This document shows positions 10,492-54,619 of a DNA stretch of 64,000 bases, piece by piece (within the stretch, counting starts at the first letter, position 1; each line of letters opens with the position of its first letter). The notes under the pieces were generated by a model. The model saw only the letters and a program-made list of their open reading frames with translations, was not told the DNA's origin and searched no databases. The position numbers and the translations under genes are program-made. Origin of the DNA: Siminovitchia fordii DSM 16014 = CIP 108821 (GTDB lineage Bacteria; Bacillota; Bacilli; Bacillales; Bacillaceae_C); assembly GCF_000374565.1 (NCBI RefSeq), contig NZ_KB894698.1:39708-103707 (forward strand), in the 5' to 3' direction.

Positions 10492-11730
10492 CTAAGCATT
10501 GGCCAATTTGCAAACAGTATGCAGCAACAGATTTGCGCCTTTTTCAATGGCTTCTTGGCTTGTAAATTCCTCTTGGCAATGACTTTTTCCATCGACGCAT
10601 GGAATAAAAATCATGGCAGTAGGTGTTATTTCATTCATGTATTTAGAGTCATGCCCAGCTCCACTTATCATTTTCTGGCTGGTGTACCCTAACTCTTCGG
10701 TTGTTTTGGAAATGACTTGGATCAATTCTTCGGAAAAGTGGCTCGAAGACGTTTCCCAGATCTTGTTGATTTCTATTGAAACGTTTTCAGTTGCTGCTGC
10801 AATGCTCAACTTTTCAATAATTACTTGGCTTAGATATTCTTTAACTGTATCATCTGAATGTCTGACATCAACCGAAAAAATAACCTCTCCGGGAACACAG
10901 TTTATCGAGTTAGGCTTAATTGCCATCCGGCCTACGGTAGCCGTTGCTTCCTCATTGTAGTTAATGATGGTATCTCTGATGAGCTGAATAAGTTTGGATG
11001 CAACATATAATGCATCTTTTCTCATGTTCATCGGGGTCGGGCCAGCGTGGTCGGATTGTCCGGTTATTTTGACCTCCAGCCAGTCCATTCCCTGGATGCC
11101 GGTAACAACCCCGATATCTAAGTTCTTATGTTCCAAGACGGGACCTTGCTCAATATGAAGTTCAAGATAGCAGTAACTGTTTTGAATCCGGTTTCTTTTC
11201 TCTCCGTGGTAACCAATCCGTTGTAACTCTTCGAGAAATGCTTTTCCTTCCCGGTCTGTTCGTGTATAAACAAAATCTTGATTAAAGTGGCCTGAAAGTC
11301 CGCCAGCACCTAATATAGGGGGCTCAAACCTTGATCCTTCTTCATTCGTAAAATTAATAATTTCAATCGGTCTTTCTGTCTGAATAGCGCTTTCATTCAA
11401 TACAGTTAATACTTCGAGACCTGCCAGTACGCCAAGAATTCCATCGTAGCGCCCACCCTCAGGTTGAGTGTCAAGATGGGATCCGATAAGAACCGGGGGA
11501 GCATCAGGATTTTTACCTTCTTTCCTTCCGTAAATATTACCGAAATCATCGATTCTAACTTGCAGTCCGATCTTTTTTAACCACTTAACATATAAATCAC
11601 GCATCTCTTTATCCTCATCCGTAAGCGCAAGGCGGCAAATTCCTCCACGGGAAAGCCTCCCTATTTCGGCACTCTCGTTAATTGTTTTCATAAGCCGTTT
11701 AATATCAATCTTGAGATCCTTTTCAATCAC
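10492..11730 (-). CDS. M20 N-carbamoyl-L-amino-acid hydrolase / allantoate amidohydrolase-like
   Basis: A 412-residue M20-family metallo-hydrolase of the hydantoinase/carbamoylase type. Metal ligands and substrate residues can be seen in LIGSHLDTQPEGGRYDGILGVLAGLE, the glutamate pair of NFTNEEGSRF, LELHIEQGPVLE, GQSDHAGPTPMNMRKDAL in the dimerisation domain, and SGAGHDSKYM near the C-terminus. Such enzymes remove the carbamoyl group from N-carbamoyl amino acids or split allantoate, releasing ammonia and CO2. It is the first gene of the operon, just downstream of a sigma-54 promoter. GTG start with ggagg upstream. The family cannot be resolved further by eye. Confidence 0.85.
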   Translation of the reverse strand: MIEKDLKIDIKRLMKTINESAEIGRLSRGGICRLALTDEDKEMRDLYVKWLKKIGLQVRIDDFGNIYGRKEGKNPDAPPVLIGSHLDTQPEGGRYDGILGVLAGLEVLTVLNESAIQTERPIEIINFTNEEGSRFEPPILGAGGLSGHFNQDFVYTRTDREGKAFLEELQRIGYHGEKRNRIQNSYCYLELHIEQGPVLEHKNLDIGVVTGIQGMDWLEVKITGQSDHAGPTPMNMRKDALYVASKLIQLIRDTIINYNEEATATVGRMAIKPNSINCVPGEVIFSVDVRHSDDTVKEYLSQVIIEKLSIAAATENVSIEINKIWETSSSHFSEELIQVISKTTEELGYTSQKMISGAGHDSKYMNEITPTAMIFIPCVDGKSHCQEEFTSQEAIEKGANLLLHTVCKLANA

Positions 11731-12035: not shown

Positions 12036-13463
12036 TTGGAAAAAATTCAAGAAATTTTGGAACACCCGTATTTTACAAAAATTCTTAATGCCCTTTCTGA
12101 CGGAGTTTTGATTTCTGATGGAGAAGGAAGAGTCATATGGTTAAATAAAGCTTGTGCAAACTTTTCGAACAGGCCGAAGTCATTTTTTATCGGAAAGGAT
12201 GTTTACTTGCTTGAAGAGTTAGGTGTCTTTAAGCCATCTGTGACAAAAATGGTGATTGAAAAGCAAGCATCAGTGAGTACAGTGCAAACAACAACTGGTA
12301 AAGACAGCAGATTTATTGTGACTGGATATCCAATCAAGGATGATGAGGGAAAAATAATCTTTATTATTGCCCAGACCAAGGACATTACGGAAATAGTGCA
12401 AACAACGAATGAATTGGAAGAAACTCAATCATTATTGAAGAGATACAGCCAAGAGATTATGCGCATTAACTATGAAAAACAAATAGATTCGTATTATTTT
12501 ACTGGTCAGAGCCCTGCCTATCTATCATTGATGCAAACAATTGATAAGATAGCTCTTACGGAGTCGACTGTTCTGCTAAGTGGGGAAACAGGGGTCGGTA
12601 AAAACGTTGTTGCCCAGCGGATTCATAAGTTGAGTGAACGGGAGAATGGACCGTTTGTTGAGATAAATTGCGGAGCGATACCGGAATCCTTAATCGAATC
12701 AGAATTGTTTGGCTATGCCAAAGGGGCGTTCACCGGTGCCAACAAAGCGGGGAAAGCCGGCTTGATCAAGATGGCTGATGGCGGTACTTTATTCCTTGAT
12801 GAAATTGGGGAGCTCCCTGTTCATTTGCAGGCTAAATTACTTCAGTTTTTACAACGGAAGCAATTTCTTCCTATAGGATCGACAGAATATCAAACAGCAA
12901 ATGTAAGGATTATCGCTGCAACAAATTTGGATTTGTTGGAAGAAGTGAAGAAAGGGAACTTTCGTTCAGATCTTTACTACAGACTGAATGTCCTTCCGAT
13001 TCACGTTCCGTCCCTCCGGGAAAGAAAAGATGATATCGTCGGCTTGCTTCAATTCAATATGGAAAAATATAATCGAAAGCATAAAAGGCAATGCCGACTT
13101 TCTGCTGATGTGATGGAATGTCTGCAAAATTATGATTGGCCGGGGAATATTCGAGAGCTTGAGAACCTCATTGAACGTCTTGTAATTATTGCACCGGAAG
13201 ATGAGATTCAAATGAGAGACTTACCGGCTAATATGAGAAATCATGATGACATAGACTTTGACCTTGCCGGTCTCAATAAGGGAGATTCATTGACGGAGGT
13301 TTTGGAATCCGTTGAAAAAACCATCATATCCAAGGCGTATGCCCAGTTTAAAACTACAAGGAAAACAGCAGAGGAACTTGGTATCACGCAATCCTTGCTG
13401 ATGAGGCGTTTGAAGAAATACAATTTGACAAAAAATGAGGAAAGTTCTTTTGAGGGTCAATGA
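12036..13463 (+). CDS. Sigma-54-dependent transcriptional activator (PAS-AAA+-HTH)
   Basis: A 475-residue enhancer-binding protein. An N-terminal PAS domain (about residues 12-120) probably senses a small molecule. The AAA+ domain follows, with Walker A GETGVGKN at 183-190, an intact GAFTGA loop at 230-235 that contacts sigma-54, and Walker B FLDE at 253-256. The C-terminus has a Fis-type HTH (KTAEELGITQSLLMRRLKKYNL). The layout is that of RocR/PrdR-like activators. It is divergent from the carbamoylase operon and adjacent to both operator boxes, so it is the likely regulator of both amidohydrolase units. TTG start with gaaagggtga upstream. Confidence 0.92.
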   Translation: MEKIQEILEHPYFTKILNALSDGVLISDGEGRVIWLNKACANFSNRPKSFFIGKDVYLLEELGVFKPSVTKMVIEKQASVSTVQTTTGKDSRFIVTGYPIKDDEGKIIFIIAQTKDITEIVQTTNELEETQSLLKRYSQEIMRINYEKQIDSYYFTGQSPAYLSLMQTIDKIALTESTVLLSGETGVGKNVVAQRIHKLSERENGPFVEINCGAIPESLIESELFGYAKGAFTGANKAGKAGLIKMADGGTLFLDEIGELPVHLQAKLLQFLQRKQFLPIGSTEYQTANVRIIAATNLDLLEEVKKGNFRSDLYYRLNVLPIHVPSLRERKDDIVGLLQFNMEKYNRKHKRQCRLSADVMECLQNYDWPGNIRELENLIERLVIIAPEDEIQMRDLPANMRNHDDIDFDLAGLNKGDSLTEVLESVEKTIISKAYAQFKTTRKTAEELGITQSLLMRRLKKYNLTKNEESSFEGQ

Positions 13464-13524: not shown

Positions 13525-13553
13525 TTGACAGAAATTTAGCCAGCCGGTAATAT
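13525..13553 (+). promoter_or_regulatory. Sigma-A promoter of leader RNA A
   Basis: TTGACA, 17 bases, TAATAT. Predicted transcription start near 13560, giving ~95 bases before the conserved part of the leader. Confidence 0.75.
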
Positions 13554-13559
13554 TGTATT

Positions 13560-13763
13560 TAAGACGTACAAAATTTGCTTTCCGGATTAATTACCTTTTT
13601 TCGGTTCAGGTAAAATAGTGCGCAACCTTATCACATAACATCGTTCAATAAGAAGACTGCCGAATCTGTCAACCAGCGGGTTTAACCGCGGGACAAACGC
13701 AGAACAAACCAGTCGCTCATCCAACCCTTTTTTGTAAAGGGCTGATGGCGACTGGTTTTTTTA
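13560..13763 (+). promoter_or_regulatory. Leader RNA A: candidate riboswitch or attenuator
   Basis: A structured 5' leader. The segment GACTG at 13655-13659 can pair with CAGTC at 13710-13714, enclosing a stem (TCTG/CAGA) with a conserved internal loop and an inner hairpin (GCGG/CCGC). The CAGTC is also part of the 5' arm of a terminator (accagtcgc..gcgactggt plus seven T), so the two folds exclude each other. Around the first strand the sequence matches leader B at 21.3 kb: TAAGAA(A)GACTG[C/T]CGAATCT, then AACC. It fits no riboswitch class I can name. It precedes the 26-residue Cys-rich peptide by about 50 bases. Confidence 0.6.
13708..13763 (+). terminator. Leader A terminator
   Basis: Stem accagtcgc / gcgactggt, with an inner TCATC..GATG extension and a CCCTT..AAGGG apical part, followed by seven T. 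Its 5' arm competes with the enclosing aptamer-like helix. Confidence 0.85.
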
Positions 13764-13812
13764 CGCCGGTTTTCTGATTCAACGGACAAATGATTCTTAG
13801 GAGGAAAAGAAC

Positions 13813-13893
13813 ATGTGTCTCGCTAAATCAGGCTGTAAATTATGCGGCAACTGCAAAGGCTCTAAAGCGGCAAAAAACGATAAGAAAAAATAA
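13813..13893 (+). CDS. 26-residue Cys-rich small protein
   Basis: A complete tiny gene: aggagga ribosome site 9 bases before ATG, 26 codons, TAA, then a perfect 17-bp terminator. Cysteines are at 2, 8, 11 and 14 (C-x5-C-x2-C-x2-C), and the C-terminal half is lysine-rich and charged (ends KNDKKK). There is no signal peptide or membrane segment, so it is probably cytoplasmic. The Cys spacing suggests metal or redox binding. Its own promoter, regulated leader and terminator mark it as a dedicated transcription unit. Not recognised as a known family. Confidence 0.7.
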   Translation: MCLAKSGCKLCGNCKGSKAAKNDKKK

Positions 13894-13902
13894 GGGGCCA
13901 AA

Positions 13903-13944
13903 CGCAAAAAGAACAGGGATGATATCCCTGTTCTTTTTGCGTTC
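13903..13944 (+). terminator. Terminator of the Cys-rich peptide gene
   Basis: Perfect 17-bp stem (13903-13919 with 13925-13941) and a 5-base loop; the 3' arm contains a run of five T. Starts 10 bases after the stop codon. Confidence 0.85.
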
Positions 13945-19419: not shown

Positions 19420-20574
19420 TCAAGTCGTGTATTCTCCATTGATCCTTACATAATCGTAAGATAAATCACAACCCCAGCCGGTCGCTTTACCTGGACCGCT
19501 TCCAAGAGAGATGGAAATGACAATCTCATTGCTTTCCAAGTAATTTGTGAGTTCCTTCAGATTCGAGTCTGCCGGTTCTCCATTCCTAAACACAGTAAGG
19601 TCACCAAATGCCACGGAAACCTTCTCCCGTTCAATAGGATACTTTGCATTTCCAATGGTTGAAATAATCCTTCCCCAGTTGGGGTCCGATCCGAAGATCG
19701 CCGTTTTGACTAACGGCGAGTTGATGATCGACTTCATCATCACTTTAGCTTCATCATCGTTTTTGGCACCTTCCACTCGTACCTCGACAAGCTTGGTGGC
19801 ACCTTCCCCATCCTTTGCCAAGTCTTTGGCCAGGCTGATCAACATATCGGTCAGTGCTTTCTCGAATTTTTCAAGGTCAACCGGGCCTGCGAGCCCGTTT
19901 GCCATTGCTGCGACAGTATCGCTTGTGCTCGTGTCTCCGTCGACAGAAACCATATTGAAAGAGACATCCACCGCCCGTTTCAACATTGTTTTAAGCACTT
20001 CTTGTTCAATTTTAGCATCAGTCATAATATAGCTGAGCATTGTCGCCATGTTCGGCTCAATCATGCCAGAACCTTTTGCAATGGCACATAAAGTGGTGCC
20101 ATCGATTTTTTTGGAGCGGAATTTTGCAAAGGTATCCGTAGTCATAATGGCTTCAGCAGAGTCCTTCAGACCATCTTTTTTCAACTCGCTTTTCAAGCCT
20201 GGAATTCCATCAACAATTCTTTGGACCGGTAGCGGGACGCCGATGACCCCTGTCGAGGAAGGGAGAATGTCTTCAGGATTAATCGTTAATTCTTCCGCAA
20301 CTGCTGAAATGATTGTATGAACATCCTTAATTCCTTGTTTTCCTGTCGCGACATTCGCATTTTTGCTATTGATGACGAATGCTTGGAGAAAGCCATCTTT
20401 AATATGTTCTTTTCCGACAGTTACTGGTGCACCGCAAAATTGGTTTTTTGTAAACATGGCAGCCGCTGCTGCGCGAGTTTCGGAGTAAATGACAGTAAAA
20501 TCAGGTGTGTTGTCTTTTATCCCAAGTTTTTTCGCGCATGAATAAAAGCCCTTTGGAAGCAGTGTATTATCCAT
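19420..20574 (-). CDS. argJ: Glutamate N-acetyltransferase / ornithine acetyltransferase
   Basis: A 384-residue ArgJ. The autoproteolytic site is at GSGMIEPNMATMLSY, where Thr178 becomes the N-terminal nucleophile of the beta chain. Also typical are SETRAAAAAMFTKNQFCGAPV at the start, the SSTGVIGVPL motif, SVDGDTSTSDTV, and the C-terminal LGSGPGKATGWGCDLSYDYVRINGEYTT. It transfers acetyl from N-acetylornithine to glutamate in arginine biosynthesis. It stands alone here rather than in an argCJBD operon. The start is the second ATG, placed by ataggag. Divergent from an ArgA-like acetyltransferase with candidate ARG boxes between. Confidence 0.95.
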   Translation of the reverse strand: MDNTLLPKGFYSCAKKLGIKDNTPDFTVIYSETRAAAAAMFTKNQFCGAPVTVGKEHIKDGFLQAFVINSKNANVATGKQGIKDVHTIISAVAEELTINPEDILPSSTGVIGVPLPVQRIVDGIPGLKSELKKDGLKDSAEAIMTTDTFAKFRSKKIDGTTLCAIAKGSGMIEPNMATMLSYIMTDAKIEQEVLKTMLKRAVDVSFNMVSVDGDTSTSDTVAAMANGLAGPVDLEKFEKALTDMLISLAKDLAKDGEGATKLVEVRVEGAKNDDEAKVMMKSIINSPLVKTAIFGSDPNWGRIISTIGNAKYPIEREKVSVAFGDLTVFRNGEPADSNLKELTNYLESNEIVISISLGSGPGKATGWGCDLSYDYVRINGEYTT

Positions 20575-20647
20575 TGTAAGTTCTCCTATCTTCATTATTT
20601 TCCATTTAAGAATATTATACAGGGGTCTTCATAAAAAGAAAGGTATA

Positions 20648-20685
20648 ATTGAATAATTATTAGATAAAATGAATATTTATTTAAA
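20648..20685. promoter_or_regulatory. Two candidate ARG boxes
   Basis: Tandem TGAATAATTATTA and TGAATATTTATTT sequences resemble ArgR/AhrC operators (TNTGAATWWWWATTCANA). They sit between argJ and the ArgA-like gene and just upstream of the latter's -35. Confidence 0.5.
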
Positions 20686-20691
20686 AATCTA

Positions 20692-20719
20692 TTGACTTTC
20701 CTTCTCCAATCGGTAAGAT
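20692..20719 (+). promoter_or_regulatory. Sigma-A promoter of the ArgA-like gene
   Basis: TTGACT, 16 bases, TAAGAT, directly downstream of the candidate ARG boxes. Confidence 0.65.
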
Positions 20720-20752
20720 TAACATTATATATTGAATCAAAAGGTGATGAAA

Positions 20753-21208
20753 ATGATCGCAGTCCGTAAGGCTGTTCTCAAGGATATTGATAAAGTCTAT
20801 GCGCTTGTCAACCAGTATGCCAACGAGGAGCTGCTGCTTCCCAGAACACGTGAATCTCTCATCATAAATATACAATCCATATTCGTAGCGGAAGAAAAGG
20901 GTGAAGTTCTTGGGGTTGCCTGCCTTGCTGTCCTTGGGCAGGACATGGCGGAAATTCGTTCTCTCGCAGTTGACGAAAAGGCGCAGGGGCGTGGTGTTGG
21001 AAAAATATTGGTGTCTAAAATTATTGAAGAAACAAAAAAAATAGGGATTTCCAAGTTGATTTCGTTAACTTATCAAGTTACGTTTTTTAAGAAATGCGGG
21101 TTTGAAATTATACAAAAGGAAGAGATGCCCCAAAAGGTCTGGACAGATTGCATCCATTGTCCAAAATTTCCAGCATGTGATGAAGTGGCAATGGCAATCA
21201 CCTTTTAA
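20753..21208 (+). CDS. GNAT acetyltransferase, short ArgA-like (N-acetylglutamate synthase)
   Basis: A 151-residue single-domain GNAT protein. The acetyl-CoA motif A is EIRSLAVDEKAQGRGVGKILV, and the C-terminus carries KKCGFEIIQKEEMPQKVWTDCIHCPKFPACDEVAM. The MPQKVW-DC-x2-CPKFPxCDE pattern is the mark of the short amino-acid N-acetyltransferases annotated as ArgA in Clostridia, Thermus and Geobacter relatives. These make N-acetylglutamate from glutamate and acetyl-CoA. The start is placed by aaaggtg. The divergent argJ supports an arginine role. The Cys pair spacing may bind a metal. Confidence 0.75.
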   Translation: MIAVRKAVLKDIDKVYALVNQYANEELLLPRTRESLIINIQSIFVAEEKGEVLGVACLAVLGQDMAEIRSLAVDEKAQGRGVGKILVSKIIEETKKIGISKLISLTYQVTFFKKCGFEIIQKEEMPQKVWTDCIHCPKFPACDEVAMAITF

Positions 21209-21249: not shown

Positions 21250-21279
21250 TTGACAGTTTCTTTATATAGTTGCTATATT
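21250..21279 (+). promoter_or_regulatory. Sigma-A promoter of leader RNA B
   Basis: TTGACA, 18 bases, TATATT. Predicted start near 21287, ~40 bases before the conserved leader element. Confidence 0.75.
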
Positions 21280-21286
21280 TATATCG

Positions 21287-21443
21287 TCATAGATATTCAT
21301 GACTGAATAACACTATTTAAGAAAGACTGTCGAATCTAACCGGACTTTGTTGGAGAAGCAAAGCCTAACGTAGATTAGAGCCAGTTTACTTAGTAAATGA
21401 CCGTTACTGAAAAAGGGGCATTTAAGGTAAAACTGGCTTTTTT
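21287..21443 (+). promoter_or_regulatory. Leader RNA B: candidate riboswitch or attenuator
   Basis: Same architecture as leader A. GACTG (21325-21329) can pair with CAGTT (21382-21386) around an inner helix AATCTA/TAGATT and an apical helix CTTTG/CAAAG, with internal-loop bases ACCGGA and CCTAACG. CAGTT is also the 5' arm of a terminator, so closing the outer helix should favour read-through. The 5' strand shares TAAGAA(A)GACTG[C/T]CGAATCT and AACC with leader A. The next recognisable gene is the aldehyde dehydrogenase ~860 bases downstream. Confidence 0.58.
21380..21443 (+). terminator. Leader B terminator
   Basis: GCCAGTTTAC / GGTAAAACTGGC stem followed by six or more T. Confidence 0.75.
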
Positions 21444-22304
21444 ATTGCTTAGGAAAGCGTAAAGCAGTAGGGACATTCTGTTCGGCTACTGTGCCCAATC
21501 CTTAAAGGGGATAAGCGGACTCCTGTTGACTTATGAACTGTTTTCAATTTCTCGGGAATCTTCTTGATAGCCCATGCTAAGGCAGGGGGGCTTAAGCTTT
21601 TCTTTTATGCTTTGCATTTTTATCTAAAAAGGCTTGTCGTTGTTTATTCATCGGGAATAGGTCAAAAGCTGTGGAAGAACTATCCCCAAAGGATTGAACA
21701 GCATAAAAGGAAATTATATCAATTCTGCAAGCGGTTCACTTTCTAAGAATGCTAGGTGAATGTGCACATTCATTTCGTGAGATGCACCGTGTCAAATATA
21801 CAGTTTTAATCATCACCTACGATCAGTGCCATTCAGGACCGACTGTCAAAGTTTGTCTTATTCGTGTTTTCGCATGGTGCCGCATCAGGTATATCCAGTC
21901 TAGGCACAATAACTTTGTGACCGGAGGTTTTTCCAAGCTGGTATTTATAAACAGCGTTACAAAAGAAATGAAAACGCCATTAAAATGGCCAGAAAGACAC
22001 GGGCAAACCGGGGAATCGCAGTTTTCAGCCGTACCTTTACGGATGACCTTACGGGGAAGTCATGGTTTATCATTCGGTCCCATTCCAAGCAAGATCTACA
22101 GGCTTCCACATCTATACTATGTAAAAAAACAATTGTAGGAAGCAAATGAGCTGATGTCAAATAGACTTGTAGAACATATTTCAGTGAAGCCGATGAAGAT
22201 TCCAGCAGTCTTGATAGAGTTCGTCCAGGTGCAAAGTTATTTGTTGTCTCGAGTTTTAAAAGATGAATCAGGAATATTATGGAGATTCAGGGAGAGTGAA
22301 CATT
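21444..22304. other. 860-base stretch between leader B and the aldehyde dehydrogenase
   Basis: Frames of up to 129 codons are open here, but none has a ribosome site and the translated sequences look random (Cys/His/Arg-rich, no hydrophobic or family pattern). It may be a decayed gene or an inserted remnant separating the leader from its gene. No RNA gene recognised. Confidence 0.45.
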
Positions 22305-23753
22305 GTGGAGAATTATTTGAATTTTATCGGCGGAGAATGGGTAAGTGCTTCTTCGGGAGAAAAGCATGAACATTTTAATCCGGCAAAACCTTCCGAAACT
22401 ATTGGATTTACTGAAATTTCTACAGTAGAAGATGTAGAAAAAGCGATTGAAGCTGCAAATGCTGCGGCAGCGGGTTGGAAAGCGATGTCTTCAGTTAACC
22501 GTGGTGAAATCCTTCGAAAAGCAGCTGATATTTTGGAAGAACGTGCAGACGATATTGCCAAAACTGCTACGCAGGAGATGGGTAAAAGATTTGTCGAAAC
22601 AAAAGGTGAAGCACTTAGAGGGGCGTCGATCCTAAGATACTACGCTCAAGAAGGCTATCGCAAAAAAGGAGAAGTTCTTCCTTCGGCAGCGGACGGAACC
22701 ACTTTGCTTTCGGTCCGTGTACCTGTAGGTGTTGTAGCAGCCATTACTCCTTGGAACTTCCCAATTGCCATTCCAATTTGGAAAATAGCTCCTGCGCTCG
22801 TATTCGGTAATCCGGTTGTGTGGAAGCCAGGACAGGAAACAGGAATTACAGCGGCAAAAGTGGCAAAAGTATTTGAAGATGCAGGACTTCCTTCCGGTGT
22901 TCTTAACCTTGTATTGGGCAGGGGCTCTGTAATCGGCGATGTTCTTACAACAAACAAACATGTAGCGGCTGTTACATTCACTGGCTCCAATGCAGTAGGC
23001 CAAAACATTGCAAAACTAGCAACTGAAAGTGGAAAGAAATTCCAATTGGAACTTGGCGGTAAAAACCCGGCTGTTGTACTAGCGGATGCAAACCTAGACC
23101 TTGCTGCACGCCTCGTTGTGGAAGGTGCTATGAAACAGACAGGCCAGCGTTGTACTGCAACAAGCCGTGCTTATGTAGAAGCAAGCATATACGAAGAGTT
23201 TGTTGAAAAAGTGATTGAAAATGCCAAACAAATCACAATCGGTAATGGGCTTGAAGATGGGATCACAATGGGTCCTGTTGCATCCAAAAAGCAATTTGAA
23301 ACAGTTACAGGCTATATCCAAAAAGGGAAAGACGAAGGGGCTGACCTTCTGTATGGAGGAAGCACGTTGGATATCGATGGAGGATACTACATTGAGCCGA
23401 CGATTTTTGGAAATGCTAACCACGAAATGACGATTATGAAGGAAGAAATATTCGGCCCGGTCGTAGCGCTGATGAAAGTGGCTGATTATGACGAAGCCCT
23501 TGAAAAAGCCAATGATACAATTTACGGATTAAGCGCTGCCGTATTTACAAATAGTCTTGAAAAAGCGTTCCATTTCATGGAAAACAGTGAAGTGGGAATG
23601 GTACAGATCAATGGTGAGACTGGGGGTGCTGAACCGCAGGCTCCGTTTGGAGGAACAAAAGCATCTGGTCAAGGTCCGAAAGAACAAGGGCAGTCAGCTG
23701 TTGAGTTCTTTACAACAAACAAGACTGTTACGATTAATCCATTCGCCAAATAA
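22305..23753 (+). CDS. Aldehyde dehydrogenase (glutarate- or 2-oxoglutarate-semialdehyde type)
   Basis: A 482-residue NAD(P)-dependent aldehyde dehydrogenase. Seen are the N-terminal YLNFIGGEWV, ITPWNFPIAIPIWKIAPALVFGN, VTFTGSNAVGQNIA of the Rossmann fold, the catalytic Glu in LELGGKNPAVV, the nucleophile in KQTGQRCTATSR, and EEIFGPVVAL. It resembles B. subtilis YcbD and other 2-oxoglutarate-semialdehyde dehydrogenases. Upstream of glutarate genes, oxidation of glutarate semialdehyde to glutarate (a GabD/DavD role) is likely. GTG start chosen because ggagag precedes it; an ATG 14 codons earlier lacks a site. Confidence 0.85.
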   Translation: MENYLNFIGGEWVSASSGEKHEHFNPAKPSETIGFTEISTVEDVEKAIEAANAAAAGWKAMSSVNRGEILRKAADILEERADDIAKTATQEMGKRFVETKGEALRGASILRYYAQEGYRKKGEVLPSAADGTTLLSVRVPVGVVAAITPWNFPIAIPIWKIAPALVFGNPVVWKPGQETGITAAKVAKVFEDAGLPSGVLNLVLGRGSVIGDVLTTNKHVAAVTFTGSNAVGQNIAKLATESGKKFQLELGGKNPAVVLADANLDLAARLVVEGAMKQTGQRCTATSRAYVEASIYEEFVEKVIENAKQITIGNGLEDGITMGPVASKKQFETVTGYIQKGKDEGADLLYGGSTLDIDGGYYIEPTIFGNANHEMTIMKEEIFGPVVALMKVADYDEALEKANDTIYGLSAAVFTNSLEKAFHFMENSEVGMVQINGETGGAEPQAPFGGTKASGQGPKEQGQSAVEFFTTNKTVTINPFAK

Positions 23754-24190: not shown

Positions 24191-24311
24191 AAAAAAAGCG
24201 AAAGAGTTTTTCAATAACGGACGATAGTCAAAGCGCTTGCTCGACCACCAAGTCCGCTTTGAGGAATTAGTGTTTTTGGGAAAAGGAAGAATATACCAAA
24301 GGAGTAAAAGA

Positions 24312-25700
24312 ATGCAAAACGAACATGATGTTAAAAAGGTATTATCACGTTGGGATGTCCTGTTTTTGGCTTTCGGCGCCATGATCGGATGGGGCTGGGT
24401 TGTAATGTCAGGAGAGTGGATCCTTGGGGCTGGTACAGTAGGTGCGATGATCGCATTTGTCGCCGGTGGAATTCTCGTAATATTTGTCGGTTTGACATAT
24501 GCAGAACTTGCATCGTCTATGCCTACGACAGGTGGAGCTCTTATTTATGTTTTTAGGGGCGTCGGGCCTAAATCAGCTTTTACGGCATCATGGATGCTCG
24601 CGCTCGGATACATTTCTGTTGTAGCATTTGAAGCAGTTGCCCTTCCAACCGTTATTGAATATATCTTCCCGAACTATAAGGTTGGGTATATGTATACAAT
24701 TAATGATTATGATGTATACGCTTCATGGGTATTGGTAGGTGTTGGAGCCTCTATTTTCGTAACAATCGTAAACTATATGGGGGTAAAATCCGCGGCCTTT
24801 TTACAAATGGTTTTAACCATTATCATTGGACTTATCGGTTTATTATTAATTTTTGGCGGAGTTTTCAATGGGGAAGCGTCAAATGCTCAGCCGCTATTCG
24901 AAGGCGGACTCGGTGGTATCATGGTGGTCGCTATTATGACTCCTTTCATGTTTGTTGGGTTTGACGTCATCCCACAAACGGCGGAAGAAATGAATGTACC
25001 GGCAAAAGCAATCGGTAAAATCCTTATTTTATCTGTTGTTTTAGCGGTAGTATGGTATGTGGCAATCATTTTGGCAGTTGGTCTTGGTTTGGATAAAGAC
25101 TCGTTGGCTGCTTCAACATTGCCAACTGCTGACGCTATGGCTACAGTGTTTGGAAGCGACATCTTCGGTATTATCTTAATTCTTGGCGGGGTTGCCGGGA
25201 TCATCACAAGCTGGAACGCATTCATCATTGGTGGAAGCCGGATTCTGTATGCCATGGCTGATAAAAAGATGATACCTGCATGGTTCGGTAAAGTCGATCA
25301 GAAACACGGTACACCTACAAATGCTGTTTTATTTATTGGTGTTTTGGCTACTATAGCTCCATTGCTTGGACGTCCTATGCTTGTTTGGCTCGTTGATGCA
25401 GGTGGACTTGCTATCGTTATTGCTTACCTTTTGGCTGCTGTTGCATTTGTCCAATTGCGTAAAAATGAACCGAACATGGTTCGTCCTTTCCAAGCTGGAA
25501 AATCCAGCATCATCGGATGGATTGCCATCATCATGAGTATTTTCTTTGTCATCCTTTACATGCCAGGTATGCCTGCGGCTCTTGTTTGGCCATACGAATG
25601 GGCTATTTTCGCAGGATGGGCTTTACTAGGTATTCTTCTCATGGTTGTGATGAGGAAAAACTTTCCTAAAGAAAAATTGACGTATAACGATAAAAAGTAA
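24312..25700 (+). CDS. APC-superfamily amino acid permease (glutarate cluster)
   Basis: A 462-residue, roughly 12-segment membrane permease. APC marks include RWDVLFLAFGAMIGWGWVVMSGEWILGAG, FVGLTYAELASSMPTTGGALIYVFRGVGPKSAF, MTPFMFVGFDVIPQTAEEMNVPAKAIG and GGSRILYAMADKKMIPAWFGKV. It should import an amino or carboxylic acid substrate for the cluster, in the position GabP holds in E. coli. The start is set by aaaggagtaaaag; 25 upstream codons without a ribosome site are excluded. Confidence 0.85.
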   Translation: MQNEHDVKKVLSRWDVLFLAFGAMIGWGWVVMSGEWILGAGTVGAMIAFVAGGILVIFVGLTYAELASSMPTTGGALIYVFRGVGPKSAFTASWMLALGYISVVAFEAVALPTVIEYIFPNYKVGYMYTINDYDVYASWVLVGVGASIFVTIVNYMGVKSAAFLQMVLTIIIGLIGLLLIFGGVFNGEASNAQPLFEGGLGGIMVVAIMTPFMFVGFDVIPQTAEEMNVPAKAIGKILILSVVLAVVWYVAIILAVGLGLDKDSLAASTLPTADAMATVFGSDIFGIILILGGVAGIITSWNAFIIGGSRILYAMADKKMIPAWFGKVDQKHGTPTNAVLFIGVLATIAPLLGRPMLVWLVDAGGLAIVIAYLLAAVAFVQLRKNEPNMVRPFQAGKSSIIGWIAIIMSIFFVILYMPGMPAALVWPYEWAIFAGWALLGILLMVVMRKNFPKEKLTYNDKK

Positions 25701-25752: not shown

Positions 25753-25827
25753 ATTTTACTCCCTTGAAAGCTAATTTTAGGTATGATAAACTCTAAATTG
25801 TATCCAAAGTGAATTGGGGTGGATATT

Positions 25828-26490
25828 TTGTCGGAGAAATTGGCTCAGCAAAAGTCGACAGTTGTTAACAATGTCACGAAACGTCTTAGAGAAGTCATTT
25901 TGGACGGTACTTTGAAAAAGGGTGACCGGTTGATTCAGGAAGAATGGGCAGAAAAGCTGAAGGTCAGCAGAATGCCGATTCGAGAAGCACTTACACAACT
26001 GCAAATGGAAGGGCTCGTGGAAATCGTCCCACACAAGGGCGCAGTTGTAACCCCAATTACAAAGGAGAATATAGAGGAAATCTACTATATTCGGTCCATG
26101 CTGGAAGGCTTGGCAGTAGAAAAGTCACTCCCATTTCTGACGGATGAGGACAAACGGCATTTGCACGATATTGTGGTCCAGATGGAAACACTGGATTTGA
26201 CGGATGAGACAAATGGAGAGTATATCCGTTTGAATGCATCTTTTCATCAGATCCTAAGGAGTGGTTGTCCGTGGCCGAGACTTCGAAAGATGGTTGAGAC
26301 TCTTGGTATTTCACCTATCGCTCCCAACCTGTTGATTGATTATTATCAGGAGACACAGCGGGAACACAGGCTTATTTATGAGGCTGCGTTAAGAGGAGAT
26401 CCGGCTGAACTGCGGGCTGCAGTGGAATATCATATATTGCGCACAAAAAATAATTTAATAGATTGTATGGAAAGTATAAGAAAAGCGTAA
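25828..26490 (+). CDS. GntR-family regulator, FCD subfamily (CsiR-like)
   Basis: A 220-residue regulator. The N-terminal winged helix (VTKRLREVILDGTLKKGDRLIQEEWAEKLKVSRMPIREALTQLQMEGLVEIVPHKGAVV) is classical GntR. The C-terminal FCD domain has the metal/ligand residues in YYIRSMLEGLA, LNASFHQIL and EHRLIYEAALRGD. FCD regulators usually sense small organic acids; in E. coli CsiR senses glutarate at the same kind of locus. The TTG start has ggggtgg 5 bases upstream. The last codons and stop lie inside a dispersed repeat, so the C-terminus may have been replaced by it. Confidence 0.85.
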   Translation: MSEKLAQQKSTVVNNVTKRLREVILDGTLKKGDRLIQEEWAEKLKVSRMPIREALTQLQMEGLVEIVPHKGAVVTPITKENIEEIYYIRSMLEGLAVEKSLPFLTDEDKRHLHDIVVQMETLDLTDETNGEYIRLNASFHQILRSGCPWPRLRKMVETLGISPIAPNLLIDYYQETQREHRLIYEAALRGDPAELRAAVEYHILRTKNNLIDCMESIRKA

Positions 26491-26702: not shown

Positions 26703-26747
26703 AACAATACAAAATAAACAGGCTTGAACAAATGGAGGCATAAAACT

Positions 26748-27965
26748 ATGTATGATTTCGCGATTGTAGGCGGCGGTATTGTAGGTTTATCGACAGGAAT
26801 GGCCATTTATGAAAGGTTCCCAAATGCAAAAGTTGTTGTTATCGAAAAAGAAGCATCTGTGGCAGAGCACCAAACCGGCCATAACAGTGGTGTTATCCAT
26901 TCCGGAATTTACTATAAACCGGGCAGCTTTAAAGCACGATTTGCGAGACAGGGCAGCCAATCAATGAGAGAGTTTGCAGAAAAATATGGCATCGAACACG
27001 ATATTTGCGGTAAAGTCATTGTTGCGACAAAGCAGGAGGAGCTTCCGCTTCTTGATAATCTCTATGAAAGAGGTTTGCAAAACGAACTTGCCATTACAAA
27101 AATCGGCAAAGAAGAATTGAATGAGATTGAGCCGCATGTTGCAGGGCTTGGAGCTATTCGTGTTCCAATGGCCGGAATTATCAACTACAAGCAGGTAAGT
27201 GAAAAGTTCGCTGAAATCATTCAGGAAAACGGCGGGGACATCCTTTTAAATACGAAGGTTGAAAAAATCAACGAAAGCTCCGACTCAGTTGTTATTGAAA
27301 CAACAAAGGGAACAGTCAAGGCCAGCATGGTCATCAACTGTGCAGGTCTTCATAGTGACCGTGTAGCTGCTGCAGCAGGGTATAAAACAGATATGAAAAT
27401 TTTGCCTTTCCGAGGGGAATATTATAAATTAGTACCTGAAAAGCGTCATTTGGTCAAACACTTGATTTATCCGGTTCCTAACCCGAAATTCCCATTCCTT
27501 GGTGTCCACTTTACGCGCATGATCAGCGGGGAAGTTGATGCAGGTCCAAATGCTGTATTAGCATTTAAACGCGAGGGGTACAAAAAGCTTGATTTCAGTG
27601 CAAGAGATTTAGCAGAAAGCCTTGCATTCCCAGGCTTATGGAAAATGGCTGGAAAGTTCGCAAAAGAAGGATTGGATGAATACGTCCGTTCATTCAGCAA
27701 AGCTCAATTTACAAAAAGCCTTCAAGCTCTAATTCCTGAAATTCAGGAAGACGACTTGATTCCGGCTCCTGCGGGTGTTCGCGCCCAAGCGCTTAAAGAT
27801 GACGGATCTATGGTCGATGATTTCAACATTATCATGGGAGACAGATCAATTCACATATGTAATGCACCATCACCAGCTGCCACTGCATCCATCGAAATAG
27901 GAAAAGAAGTGGTTAGACGAATTCCTGAACAAACACATCTGAAAGAAGCAGCTGTAACATTATAA
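26748..27965 (+). CDS. lhgO: L-2-hydroxyglutarate oxidase
   Basis: A 405-residue FAD enzyme of the DAO superfamily. The N-terminal dinucleotide fold YDFAIVGGGIVGLSTGMAIYERFP and EKEASVAEHQTGHNSGVIHSGIYYKPGSFKARF are diagnostic of LhgO, as are PVPNPKFPFLGVHFTRMISGEVDAGPNAVLAFKREGY and the C-terminal ICNAPSPAATASIEIGKEV. It oxidises L-2-hydroxyglutarate to 2-oxoglutarate and passes electrons to the quinone pool at the membrane. Ribosome site ggagg fixes the ATG. Followed after 23 bases by a DUF3870 gene and, further on, the GlaH gene that makes its substrate. Confidence 0.93.
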   Translation: MYDFAIVGGGIVGLSTGMAIYERFPNAKVVVIEKEASVAEHQTGHNSGVIHSGIYYKPGSFKARFARQGSQSMREFAEKYGIEHDICGKVIVATKQEELPLLDNLYERGLQNELAITKIGKEELNEIEPHVAGLGAIRVPMAGIINYKQVSEKFAEIIQENGGDILLNTKVEKINESSDSVVIETTKGTVKASMVINCAGLHSDRVAAAAGYKTDMKILPFRGEYYKLVPEKRHLVKHLIYPVPNPKFPFLGVHFTRMISGEVDAGPNAVLAFKREGYKKLDFSARDLAESLAFPGLWKMAGKFAKEGLDEYVRSFSKAQFTKSLQALIPEIQEDDLIPAPAGVRAQALKDDGSMVDDFNIIMGDRSIHICNAPSPAATASIEIGKEVVRRIPEQTHLKEAAVTL

Positions 27966-28318: not shown

Positions 28319-28343
28319 TATTTGTTTGGTAAATATTGAAATA

Positions 28344-28386
28344 AAAAAGTTCCTTTTCGGTGTATTTCACCGAAAAGGAACTTTTT
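28344..28386 (+). terminator. Terminator of the lhgO-DUF3870 unit
   Basis: A 19-bp perfect stem (AAAAAGTTCCTTTTCGGTG with its complement), 5-base loop and T run. Confidence 0.9.
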
Positions 28387-28429
28387 ATTTTATAGACTTT
28401 CAAATAAATCGATGTATCTACGACTTTAT

Positions 28430-28935: not shown

Positions 28936-28964
28936 TTGACATATTTTACCCAAGGTGCTATTCT
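28936..28964 (+). promoter_or_regulatory. Sigma-A promoter of leader RNA C / glaH
   Basis: TTGACA, 17 bases, TATTCT. Predicted start near 28971, leaving a ~265-base leader before glaH. Confidence 0.78.
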
Positions 28965-28970
28965 TGAATT

Positions 28971-29180
28971 AAGCAATCATTATAACATATTCACCTTTTG
29001 AAAAATGCCTTTTCAAAATCCGTGAATAGTATAGATTTTTTTGGAGACAGGAAAATAAAATATGCTGACTGCAATATTCACTGTGACTCTACAACCATAG
29101 AGCGGTGAAGTGAATATAAGCCAGTTGCCGATATGAAACCTATTTTAATCAGAATAGGTGTATCGACAGCTGGCTTTTTA
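28971..29180 (+). promoter_or_regulatory. Leader RNA C: candidate regulatory leader of glaH
   Basis: GACTG (29067-29071) can pair with CAGTT (29122-29126) around a helix ATATTCAC/GTGAATAT and an apical CTCTA/TAGAG hairpin with loop CAACCA. CAGTT is also within the 5' arm of a strong terminator. This is the arrangement of leaders A and B, but outside GACTG and GCCAGTT the primary sequence differs, so homology is less sure. It sits 58 bases before the glaH start and should set read-through into that gene. Confidence 0.5.
29120..29180 (+). terminator. Leader C terminator
   Basis: 14-bp stem GCCAGTTGCCGATA / TATCGACAGCTGGC (two G-T pairs), inner AACCTATT..AATAGGT hairpin, then five T. Confidence 0.85.
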
Positions 29181-29237: not shown

Positions 29238-30170
29238 ATGGGCGTTACAAAAGAAAAAAAGTTTCTTAAAACAGGAAAAGCATATGAAGTGAAGTCTCAT
29301 CCGCAGTCCGATCGTCTGTATCATATTGAAATCAACAAAGAAGCCATTGCTAAATTCTTGGCAGCTGTTGAAGAAAAAGGCATCACTGTCCAAACATTGG
29401 AATACACACCATATAAGCGTCAAATCATCGCTTCTCTTCTTCAAGATTTTGTCGGCGAAGATCTTGGTGAAATTCTAAGAGGCATTGTTCATGACCGTGA
29501 GTCCGGTGGTTTCACAGTTGGTTTGGAAGGTGTAACAGAAGACACTGATGAGTTTGTCATCTTCGGAACAGCAATCTCTCACTTGGTTGGTATGCCAAAC
29601 TTTGATGCAATGACTGGTAAATATTATGCACGCTTCACAGTTAAGCACACTGACAACAGTGACTCTTTCCTTCGTCAAGCATACCGTCTATTCACAATGC
29701 ACACTGACGGAACATTCGTTGACGAGCCAACTGACTGGTTGCTTATGATGAAAATGGTTGAAGAAAATGCAGTCGGCGGTGAATCAAGACTTCTTCACTT
29801 GGATGACTGGAAAGAGCTTGATAAATTTGCGAACAATCCGCTTGGAAAACATAAGTTCACATACATTGCACCTCCAAGCAAAAACGTAACCCAAACAGTA
29901 GACCGTGCTACATTCTTTAATGTGAATGACAAGCCATGCATCTGTTTCATCGATCAGTTCGTATATCCAGAAACAATTGAACAGGCAAAATACCTGGAAG
30001 ACCTTTCTGCATCATTGGAATCTGACGACAGTGTCATTGAATTGGAACTTCCAGTTGGAGATCTTGTCGTACTGAACAACTTGTTCTGGATGCACGGACG
30101 TGCAGCGTTCGAAGTGAACCCTGACTTGAACCGTGAATTGATGCGCCAACGTGGACGATTTGTTGAATAA
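29238..30170 (+). CDS. glaH: Glutarate 2-hydroxylase (CsiD/GlaH)
   Basis: A 310-residue Fe(II)/2-oxoglutarate dioxygenase of the CsiD family. The iron ligands are visible as His155-Thr-Asp157 in FTMHTDGTFVDEP and His286 in NLFWMHGRAAF; Arg304 in LMRQRGRF should hold 2-oxoglutarate. It hydroxylates glutarate to L-2-hydroxyglutarate, consuming O2 and 2-oxoglutarate; LhgO then regenerates 2-oxoglutarate. The ATG is fixed by caggagga; the 35 upstream codons overlap the leader terminator and are rejected. It forms its own unit behind leader C, with a strong terminator after it. Confidence 0.92.
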   Translation: MGVTKEKKFLKTGKAYEVKSHPQSDRLYHIEINKEAIAKFLAAVEEKGITVQTLEYTPYKRQIIASLLQDFVGEDLGEILRGIVHDRESGGFTVGLEGVTEDTDEFVIFGTAISHLVGMPNFDAMTGKYYARFTVKHTDNSDSFLRQAYRLFTMHTDGTFVDEPTDWLLMMKMVEENAVGGESRLLHLDDWKELDKFANNPLGKHKFTYIAPPSKNVTQTVDRATFFNVNDKPCICFIDQFVYPETIEQAKYLEDLSASLESDDSVIELELPVGDLVVLNNLFWMHGRAAFEVNPDLNRELMRQRGRFVE

Positions 30171-54459: not shown

Positions 54460-54483
54460 AGAATAAAACAGAAATTTGTCGTT

Positions 54484-54556
54484 TTATATCGTATAATCGT
54501 GGGGATATGGCCCACAAGTTTCTACCAGGCTGCCGTAAATAGCTTGACTACGAGAT
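54484..54556 (+). promoter_or_regulatory. Purine (guanine-type) riboswitch aptamer
   Basis: The conserved purine aptamer core is present: TATAATC, GGATATGG in J1-2/P2, AAGTTTCTACC, CCGTAAAT and TTGACTACGAG. The key J3-1 pyrimidine in GACTAC is C, which pairs with guanine or hypoxanthine rather than adenine. The 3' strand of P1 (GACTACG) is complementary to CGTAGTC inside the loop arm of the terminator at 54620-54655, giving an antiterminator. Guanine binding therefore favours termination (OFF switch). Confidence 0.95.
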
Positions 54557-54619
54557 AAAAAACGGGGATTATTTTATTTTTGTGTAATCCCTTATTTTAT
54601 AAGTTATCTATCTCAGTCA

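Follow-up and report, generated by a model that had tools for sequence, protein, structure and literature searches.

The window, i.e., the whole 64,000-nucleotide stretch of DNA analysed, carries three related RNA leaders, the first of which precedes a tiny cysteine-rich peptide gene. The elements of this peptide leader lie on the + strand. A sigma-A-type promoter, TTGACA-17-TAATAT, was located at 13525–13553 by the promoter scan (10 of 12 consensus matches), as the original prediction had proposed, and the −35 element kept its place across all ten aligned leaders (TTGACA in eight, TAGACA in two). Given this promoter, the RNA should start at approximately 13562. The original prediction began the element at 13640, about 80 nt too late, and overlooked a second conserved domain at 13564–13622. 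According to the alignment and predicted folds, this 5′ domain consists of P1 (CGUAC 13565–13569/GUGCG 13618–13622), P2 (UUUGC 13574–13578/GUAAA 13610–13614) and P3 (13582–13590/13596–13604, with the loop UUACC at 13591–13595). A variable linker joins it to a 3′ core of P4–P6 (13655–13714), which was delineated in the same way. P4 (GACUG 13655–13659/CAGUC 13710–13714) surrounds P5 (UCUGU 13665–13669/GCAGA 13699–13703) and P6 (13673–13679/13686–13692, including GCGG 13676–13679/CCGC 13686–13689); the closing helix around a two-helix core was thus present in the sequence as previously described. The intrinsic terminator (13703–13762) reuses the P4 3′ strand CAGUC in its 5′ arm, which had also been anticipated; its arms (13703–13716 and 13748–13761) are 93% complementary, and T7 occupies 13756–13762. 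The simple terminator scan did not report this terminator, its sole listed site being a different one (13750–13771). The 141 nt segment 13630–13770 folded with a z of −4.18, and none of 200 shuffles was equally stable. The aptamer stretch minus the terminator had a modest stability (z = −1.84; 8 of 200 shuffles equally good).

The stretch between the terminator and the open reading frame (ORF), 13763–13812 (CCGGTTTTCTGATTCAACGGACA), was strongly conserved within the genus and may form a small hairpin ahead of the ribosome site. The peptide ORF (13813–13893, +; MCLAKSGCKLCGNCKGSKAAKNDKKK) encodes the predicted 26 residues with four Cys and has the Shine–Dalgarno sequence AGGAGG. The promoter scan gave no promoter-like site on the + strand of the terminator-to-ORF interval, and hence expression of the ORF probably requires read-through. 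Within 13564–13763, there was no ATG-initiated ORF of 15 codons or more that had a Shine–Dalgarno sequence; ribosome-mediated attenuation is therefore unlikely, and an attenuator of this type was rejected. A hairpin with a T run (13902–13942, +), read by eye and absent from the simple scan, is likely the peptide gene's own terminator, so that the gene is probably monocistronic. On the 5′ side of the leader lie an allantoate/N-carbamoyl amidohydrolase family enzyme (10492–11730) and a sigma-54 activator (12036–13463), the nearest model of which, PrdR, was matched below its cut-off.

The original prediction named a leader B without defining it; the two further leaders identified here belong to an island with the order leader, aminotransferase remnant, aldehyde dehydrogenase, permease, GntR, LhgO, leader and GlaH. 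The second leader (21250–21443, +; TTGACA 21250–21255 assigned by eye, core 21325–21386, U run 21438–21443) is upstream of a remnant of a GABA-type aminotransferase (21676–22249, two tblastn fragments with 30–32% identity) and of an aldehyde dehydrogenase (22263–23753, +). For the latter, the nearest NCBIfam model was alpha-ketoglutaric semialdehyde dehydrogenase, at 674 bits and below the cut-off of 770. These genes are followed by an amino acid permease (24237–25700, +; nearest models below cut-off), a GntR-type regulator (25819–26490, +) and the L-2-hydroxyglutarate oxidase LhgO (26724–27965, +; NCBIfam 596 bits, cut-off 299). The regulator had no NCBIfam match at 1e-40 and was 61–64% identical to GntR-model-matching proteins of genome G577 and Sporosarcina. 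The third leader (28936–29179, +; TTGACA 28936–28941 assigned by eye, core 29067–29126, U run 29175–29179) precedes the glutarate dioxygenase GlaH/CsiD (29238–30170, +; NCBIfam 434.9 bits, cut-off 333). A further model match at 28339–28418 (E 0.04–0.15) was rejected, as it resembled a simple terminator hairpin located downstream of LhgO. The island also contains ArgJ and an acetyltransferase gene (19420–21208), in Siminovitchia as well as in Bacillus ectoiniformans. Elsewhere in the window, a purine riboswitch was located at 54469–54570 (Rfam RF00167, 84 bits).

Relatives of the leader and the genes behind them

A blastn search with the leader gave matches in 6 of 60 genomes, namely the window's own and all five other genomes of the genus Siminovitchia (Siminovitchia fortis, S. 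thermophila, S. terrae, Bacillus norwichensis and Bacillus sp. HF117), and none of the 54 others. It also revealed copy B, a second, stand-alone copy of the RNA in the genome from which the window comes. Covariance model R1 was built on six peptide leaders and copy B, and model R2 on nine peptide leaders and copy B. Within the order, R1 matched 2 of 397 genomes, including the window's own (G000), the new one being B. ectoiniformans (G141); over the class it matched 3 of 398, adding G577. The R1 matches coincided with those of the peptide profile (E below 1e-8), which were likewise restricted to G000, G141 and G577 among the 398 class genomes. A pattern scan of genome contigs gave 29 matches (7 strong model matches and 22 others) and added an uncultured Sporosarcina, identical over 550 nt to G994, a genome of the same genus as G577. 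Over the phylum, R2 matched 2 of 259 genomes including the window's own and added G073, with leader and peptide; the class-level R1 and peptide-profile searches and one other scan had covered this genome without a match. A match in G264 lay inside a coding gene when read by eye, and a match at L092 6602–6722 (E 0.26) was unlike a leader; both were discarded. Phage or plasmid carriage was also rejected, with no blastn match and no peptide match in viral contigs; the one RNA-pattern match in viral contigs was unsupported by the model. The homologues that the original prediction had proposed to seek with a covariance model were thus found, and their helices covaried.

The strong full-length model matches comprised 11 distinct leaders, 10 of which had a small Cys peptide behind them, copy B being the exception. 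R2 then matched diverged copies ahead of glutarate genes in the same chromosomal islands. Through model searches, pattern reading and the stretches around known loci, 29 leaders were gathered in 10 genomes (Siminovitchia, B. ectoiniformans, Sporosarcina, G577 and G073). Ten precede the Cys peptide, one is solitary (copy B), and 18 precede likely glutarate or 5-aminovalerate genes; the leader is accordingly not specific to the Cys peptide, and the original prediction was incomplete in this respect. These 18 comprise eight GlaH leaders (six Siminovitchia, G577 and Sporosarcina), eight leaders of an aminotransferase or aldehyde dehydrogenase (six Siminovitchia, B. ectoiniformans and G577), and one CoA-transferase and one permease leader, both in G577. 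A fit to the pathway is seen for 18 of 29 leaders and not for copy B or the G073 location; since the regions were chosen near known leaders, the association applies to these islands, and no genome-wide frequency follows from it.

The model support for the enzyme-type leaders was moderate. Under R2, nine of the 18 were matched at E 0.01 or better and three at E 0.1–0.5, a range that also holds false matches; the remaining six were unlisted by R2 and were detected by the core pattern alone. The second leader of the window was weak by the model (R2 E 0.1), and the 5′ domain of R2 is meaningless for it because the start of the match falls on the promoter. The third was matched by R2 at 28980–29126. 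A core descriptor, which was devised with the leaders already known and is not an independent test, gave 28 matches in the 233,863 bases of the selected loci (including one duplicate, thus 27 of the 29 leaders), compared with 3 in 2,338,630 bases of shuffled sequence and none in 23 unrelated loci.

The aldehyde dehydrogenase, permease, GntR, LhgO and GlaH were matched in all six Siminovitchia stretches, and GlaH and LhgO were also above curated cut-offs in G577. The aminotransferase was intact in S. fortis (L087:1120–2466), fragmentary in S. terrae as in the window, and without a match at 1e-5 in the stretches of B. norwichensis, HF117 and S. thermophila. In five Siminovitchia genomes, 0.8–1 kb separate the second leader from the aldehyde dehydrogenase, and this interval lacks an intact aminotransferase. 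The intact transaminases of S. fortis and B. ectoiniformans were of the 4-aminobutyrate type and above the TIGR00700 cut-off. The B. ectoiniformans stretches contained the aminotransferase, aldehyde dehydrogenase and permease and gave no match for GlaH or LhgO. In G577, the CoA-transferase was nearest to a succinate–glutarate model but below its cut-off (445 vs. 750), and the permease, the acyl-CoA dehydrogenase and an aminotransferase of unassigned substrate behind one leader were also below curated cut-offs. The G577 island holds a Bacillaceae-1 RNA (L064:7881–7946, −; Rfam RF01690, 47 bits) between a 317-aa ORF and GntR. No island or glutarate gene was matched within the 26 kb read around the G073 peptide leader.

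Copy B (L007:1502–1646, −, on G000:C1) is a solitary RNA with a promoter, the structure and a terminator. It lies upstream of a siderophore ABC transporter operon, which has its own promoter and Fur box as read by eye, and a heavy-metal P-type ATPase gene is nearby. The first permease gene of the operon was present in six of six Siminovitchia genomes and the copy B RNA core in one of six. The link between copy B and the operon is therefore incidental or new, iron control inferred from copy B was rejected on these counts, and copy B may have been recruited recently. At the siderophore loci, the exact Fur-box pattern was found in four of six, and a blastn match of the upstream region in six of six.

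All ten peptides keep four Cys invariantly. The spacing in MCLAKSGCKLCGNCKGSKAAKNDKKK is C-x5-C-x2-C-x2-C, and the consensus of nine peptides is M-C-x5-C-K-x-C-G-x-C-K; the G073 version (MCKKTGCGKCSNCPLANTKKEK, leader at L086:1501–1633) has 22 aa and the spacing C-x4-C-x2-C-x2-C. With the peptide profile, matches were obtained in 6 of 34 genomes in the family of Siminovitchia, 2 of 261 in that of G577 and, at E below 1e-8, 3 of 398 in the class. Such rarity counts, for the peptide and the leader alike, are lower bounds, G073 being absent from the class-level profile matches. Weak peptide matches in 18 of 21 genomes were judged by reading to be chance frames. Four peptides had no relative in Pfam or NCBIfam at E up to 10, and membership of a known Cys-rich, metallothionein or ferredoxin family was rejected within these collections. 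The PDB search gave one match, ribosomal protein L37a (E 0.81), which was taken as chance. The best reading is that the peptide is a co-regulated product, one regulon member of the leader class; its four Cys suggest a small metal- or Fe–S-binding helper peptide.

Conserved structure and alternative pairing

The ten longer leaders (nine with the peptide and copy B) were aligned as complete sequences fitted to the R1 structure. In this alignment, 93.4% of 348 cells were paired, whereas slid versions of the structure paired in 34–40%, and both-sided changes occurred in 8 of 35 pairs against a mean of 1.9 after shuffling (reached by 0 of 500). P3 of B. ectoiniformans has a wholly different sequence with perfect pairing, and that of Sporosarcina is also perfectly paired; in the six closest Siminovitchia copies (6 of the 10 leaders), P3 contains two mismatches among its nine pairs. 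P4 and P5 were near-invariant in this set. The element is conserved in all six genomes of the genus, in B. ectoiniformans, Sporosarcina and G073, and a structured receptor with covariation was thus found in the 5′ leader. The 5′ domain was clear in the peptide leaders and in the Siminovitchia GlaH leader, where P2 is UUCAC/GUGAA and P3 has nine pairs and the loop AUGCC (by eye); elsewhere it was reduced or different. A P3–P6 kissing loop fitted some leaders and not others by eye.

Each of the 29 cores contains ACUG, a five- or six-base internal loop, the helices P5 and P6, and a short segment with CCAG at its end; this segment doubles as the terminator foot. P5 (UCUGU/GCAGA, UCUAA/UUAGA, UUUAC/GUAAA, UUCAC/GUGAA) and P6 (GCGG/CCGC, UCUG/CAGA, CCUU/AAGG, AUAC/GUAU) differ by subtype with pairing kept. 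Manual alignment of the cores, with visual choice of P5 and P6, biases the following values towards pairing. In a reduced set of 16 leaders, 95.1% of the core cells were paired vs. 77.7% after shuffling (0 of 2000), and both-sided changes were present in 10 of 14 pairs vs. 6.2 (1 of 2000). With the full set of 29, the paired fraction was 96.1% vs. 79.6% (0 of 2000), and both-sided changes in 9 of 14 pairs vs. 6.8 were not extreme (reached by 104 of 2000 shuffles). Covariation had been expected in the closing helix and the helix inside it. In P4, the outermost pair varied and was non-standard in 7 of 29 leaders, but the inner three pairs (CTG/CAG) were invariant; the support for P4 is hence its conservation and dual use. 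P5 varied across the class as expected, but was invariant within the ten-leader set.

The antiterminator/terminator geometry of the original prediction was recovered in the predicted folds. The P4 3′ strand paired with the terminator 3′ arm in all ten longer leaders and in 26 of the 29 cores; two of the other three paired once extended past an internal T5, and copy B required 100 nt of upstream context. Folding of the core alone gave P4 in 29 of 29, a count favoured by cutting at P4, and de novo folding of the aptamer with the 5′ domain gave it in 8 of 10 (missing in B. ectoiniformans and Sporosarcina). Thus, CAGT is predicted to pair either upstream (P4) or downstream (terminator) in nearly every leader, and the structure predictions contain an expression platform that shares a strand with the receptor.

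Ligand and alternative explanations

A conserved, terminator-linked RNA class absent from Rfam is real, and the architecture of the leaders is well supported. As a new riboswitch the class is a credible candidate, with the ligand guessed from the pathway. Catabolic genes are usually required when their substrate is present. Since the genes behind the leaders would serve under this condition and P4 spares transcription, an ON switch is the natural reading. The chances are about even that the leader class is a riboswitch that binds a glutarate-pathway metabolite, most likely glutarate, and holds P4 so that transcription continues. Binding of this metabolite to the RNA would stabilise the antiterminator helix P4 and keep CAGUC from the terminator; the terminator would be undone, and read-through would switch on the glutarate-breakdown genes and the Cys peptide. 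We infer that a small molecule is sensed rather than a protein, that binding turns the genes on, and that glutarate is preferred over 5-aminovalerate or L-2-hydroxyglutarate. Counted against this explanation is the GntR gene in several islands, which could already supply glutarate control. A more specific form is doubtful; in it the class would be the first natural glutarate riboswitch, with a core of approximately 60 nt (P4–P6), and would, in some Bacillales, drive the entire 5-aminovalerate–glutarate–L-2-hydroxyglutarate route together with a ferredoxin-like peptide of 22–28 residues serving its iron or electron-transfer steps.

The gene set resembles the route of the E. coli csiD-lhgO-gabD-gabT-gabP operon, which leads from 5-aminovalerate through glutarate and L-2-hydroxyglutarate to 2-oxoglutarate and in which glutarate relieves repression by CsiR (PMC6265302). 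Glutarate was taken as the first choice of ligand because the protein regulators of the route sense glutarate, or glutarate and L-2-hydroxyglutarate, and not 5-aminovalerate (PMC6667623). A riboswitch whose ligand is 5-aminovalerate or a different amino compound from the start of the pathway is unlikely. In its favour, leaders precede the GABA-type aminotransferases of S. fortis and B. ectoiniformans and the permease of G577, and the B. ectoiniformans stretches keep the aminotransferase, aldehyde dehydrogenase and permease with neither GlaH nor LhgO matched. Against such a ligand, the aminotransferase of the window is a remnant while the leader of GlaH, which acts on glutarate, was kept.

An attenuator that responds to an RNA-binding protein, or to feedback from the Cys/Lys-rich peptide, instead of to a small molecule is rather unlikely. 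In favour of it, the basic peptide, with its possible metal knuckle, lies behind the most elaborate leaders (10 of the 11 distinct strong full-length matches), but 18 leaders do not precede it, none of the regulator genes tested is in every island, and no T-box or other Rfam leader was matched. A metal- or redox-sensing riboswitch with the peptide as its metal-handling product, the signal originally considered plausible, is improbable. The four invariant Cys and the surroundings of copy B (P-type ATPase gene and siderophore operon) would suit it, as would the Fe2+ dependence of CsiD (PMC5974017); however, carbon-catabolism genes stand behind most leaders, and the operon's permease gene (6/6) is far more widespread than copy B (1/6). 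A pathway metabolite is the better guess because 18 of 29 leaders precede likely glutarate or 5-aminovalerate genes. That the transcript is chiefly a small RNA acting in trans, with the terminated form as its product, is very improbable: copy B has a promoter, RNA and terminator with no gene of its own close behind, but 28 of 29 leaders have a fitting downstream gene (in five at 0.8–1 kb), and the strand shared by P4 and the terminator is kept.

If the leader class is a glutarate-pathway riboswitch and the ligand is glutarate or a neighbour, the metabolite would be new to RNA sensing, and the RNA would serve as a genetically encoded sensor for a dicarboxylate used in industry. Moreover, an unannotated tiny Cys-rich peptide would be tied to a defined pathway, and the roles of riboswitch and peptide would be directly testable.

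Comparison with known systems

The adenine riboswitch exemplifies ON riboswitches of the terminator type, in which one strand of the receptor's closing helix is also part of the terminator. The same sharing of a strand characterises the leader class, the sequence and structure of which are otherwise unrelated to the adenine riboswitch. The glutamine riboswitch of the Downstream-peptide type is a structured RNA that senses a metabolite of the five-carbon glutamate family. It is similar to the present leaders in that a structured RNA controls a very short protein gene and in the five-carbon, glutamate-family nature of the predicted metabolite; however, the hosts, structure and peptide differ, and no match to this class (Downstream-peptide or glnA RNA) was obtained at the Rfam gathering score. 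The T-box model was not matched either. In general, none of the riboswitch or cis-regulatory families of Rfam 15 reached its gathering threshold at the leader, the permissive matches being at chance level and far below, which agrees with the original view that no known class is matched.

Neither a glutarate or aminovalerate riboswitch nor such a Siminovitchia RNA was found among the listed titles and abstract starts of openly licensed PMC articles. A term search of an orphan riboswitch review gave none of the peptide terms (PMC7266159). The passages of a structured-RNA survey on short-ORF motifs describe others, among them a uORF of 11 residues and an attenuator based on cysteine codons, and nothing that resembles the peptide leader (PMC8632094). 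Regarding the peptide, the ferredoxin maquette FdM1 (KLCEGGCIACGACGGW), a designed peptide, is likewise short and contains C-x2-C-x2-C plus one upstream Cys (PMC10946529). The upstream spacing is x3 in FdM1 and x5 here (x4 in G073), and the likeness concerns the Cys motif of a peptide known from its sequence.

Functional counterparts are the regulators CsiR (GntR) and GcdR (LysR), which control similar enzymes (GlaH/CsiD, LhgO, GabT/GabD-like and the glutaryl-CoA route) and probably respond to the same signal (PMC6265302, PMC6667623). Both are DNA-binding proteins, whereas control here would be exerted by a terminator-bearing RNA leader, with a GntR gene nearby in some islands.
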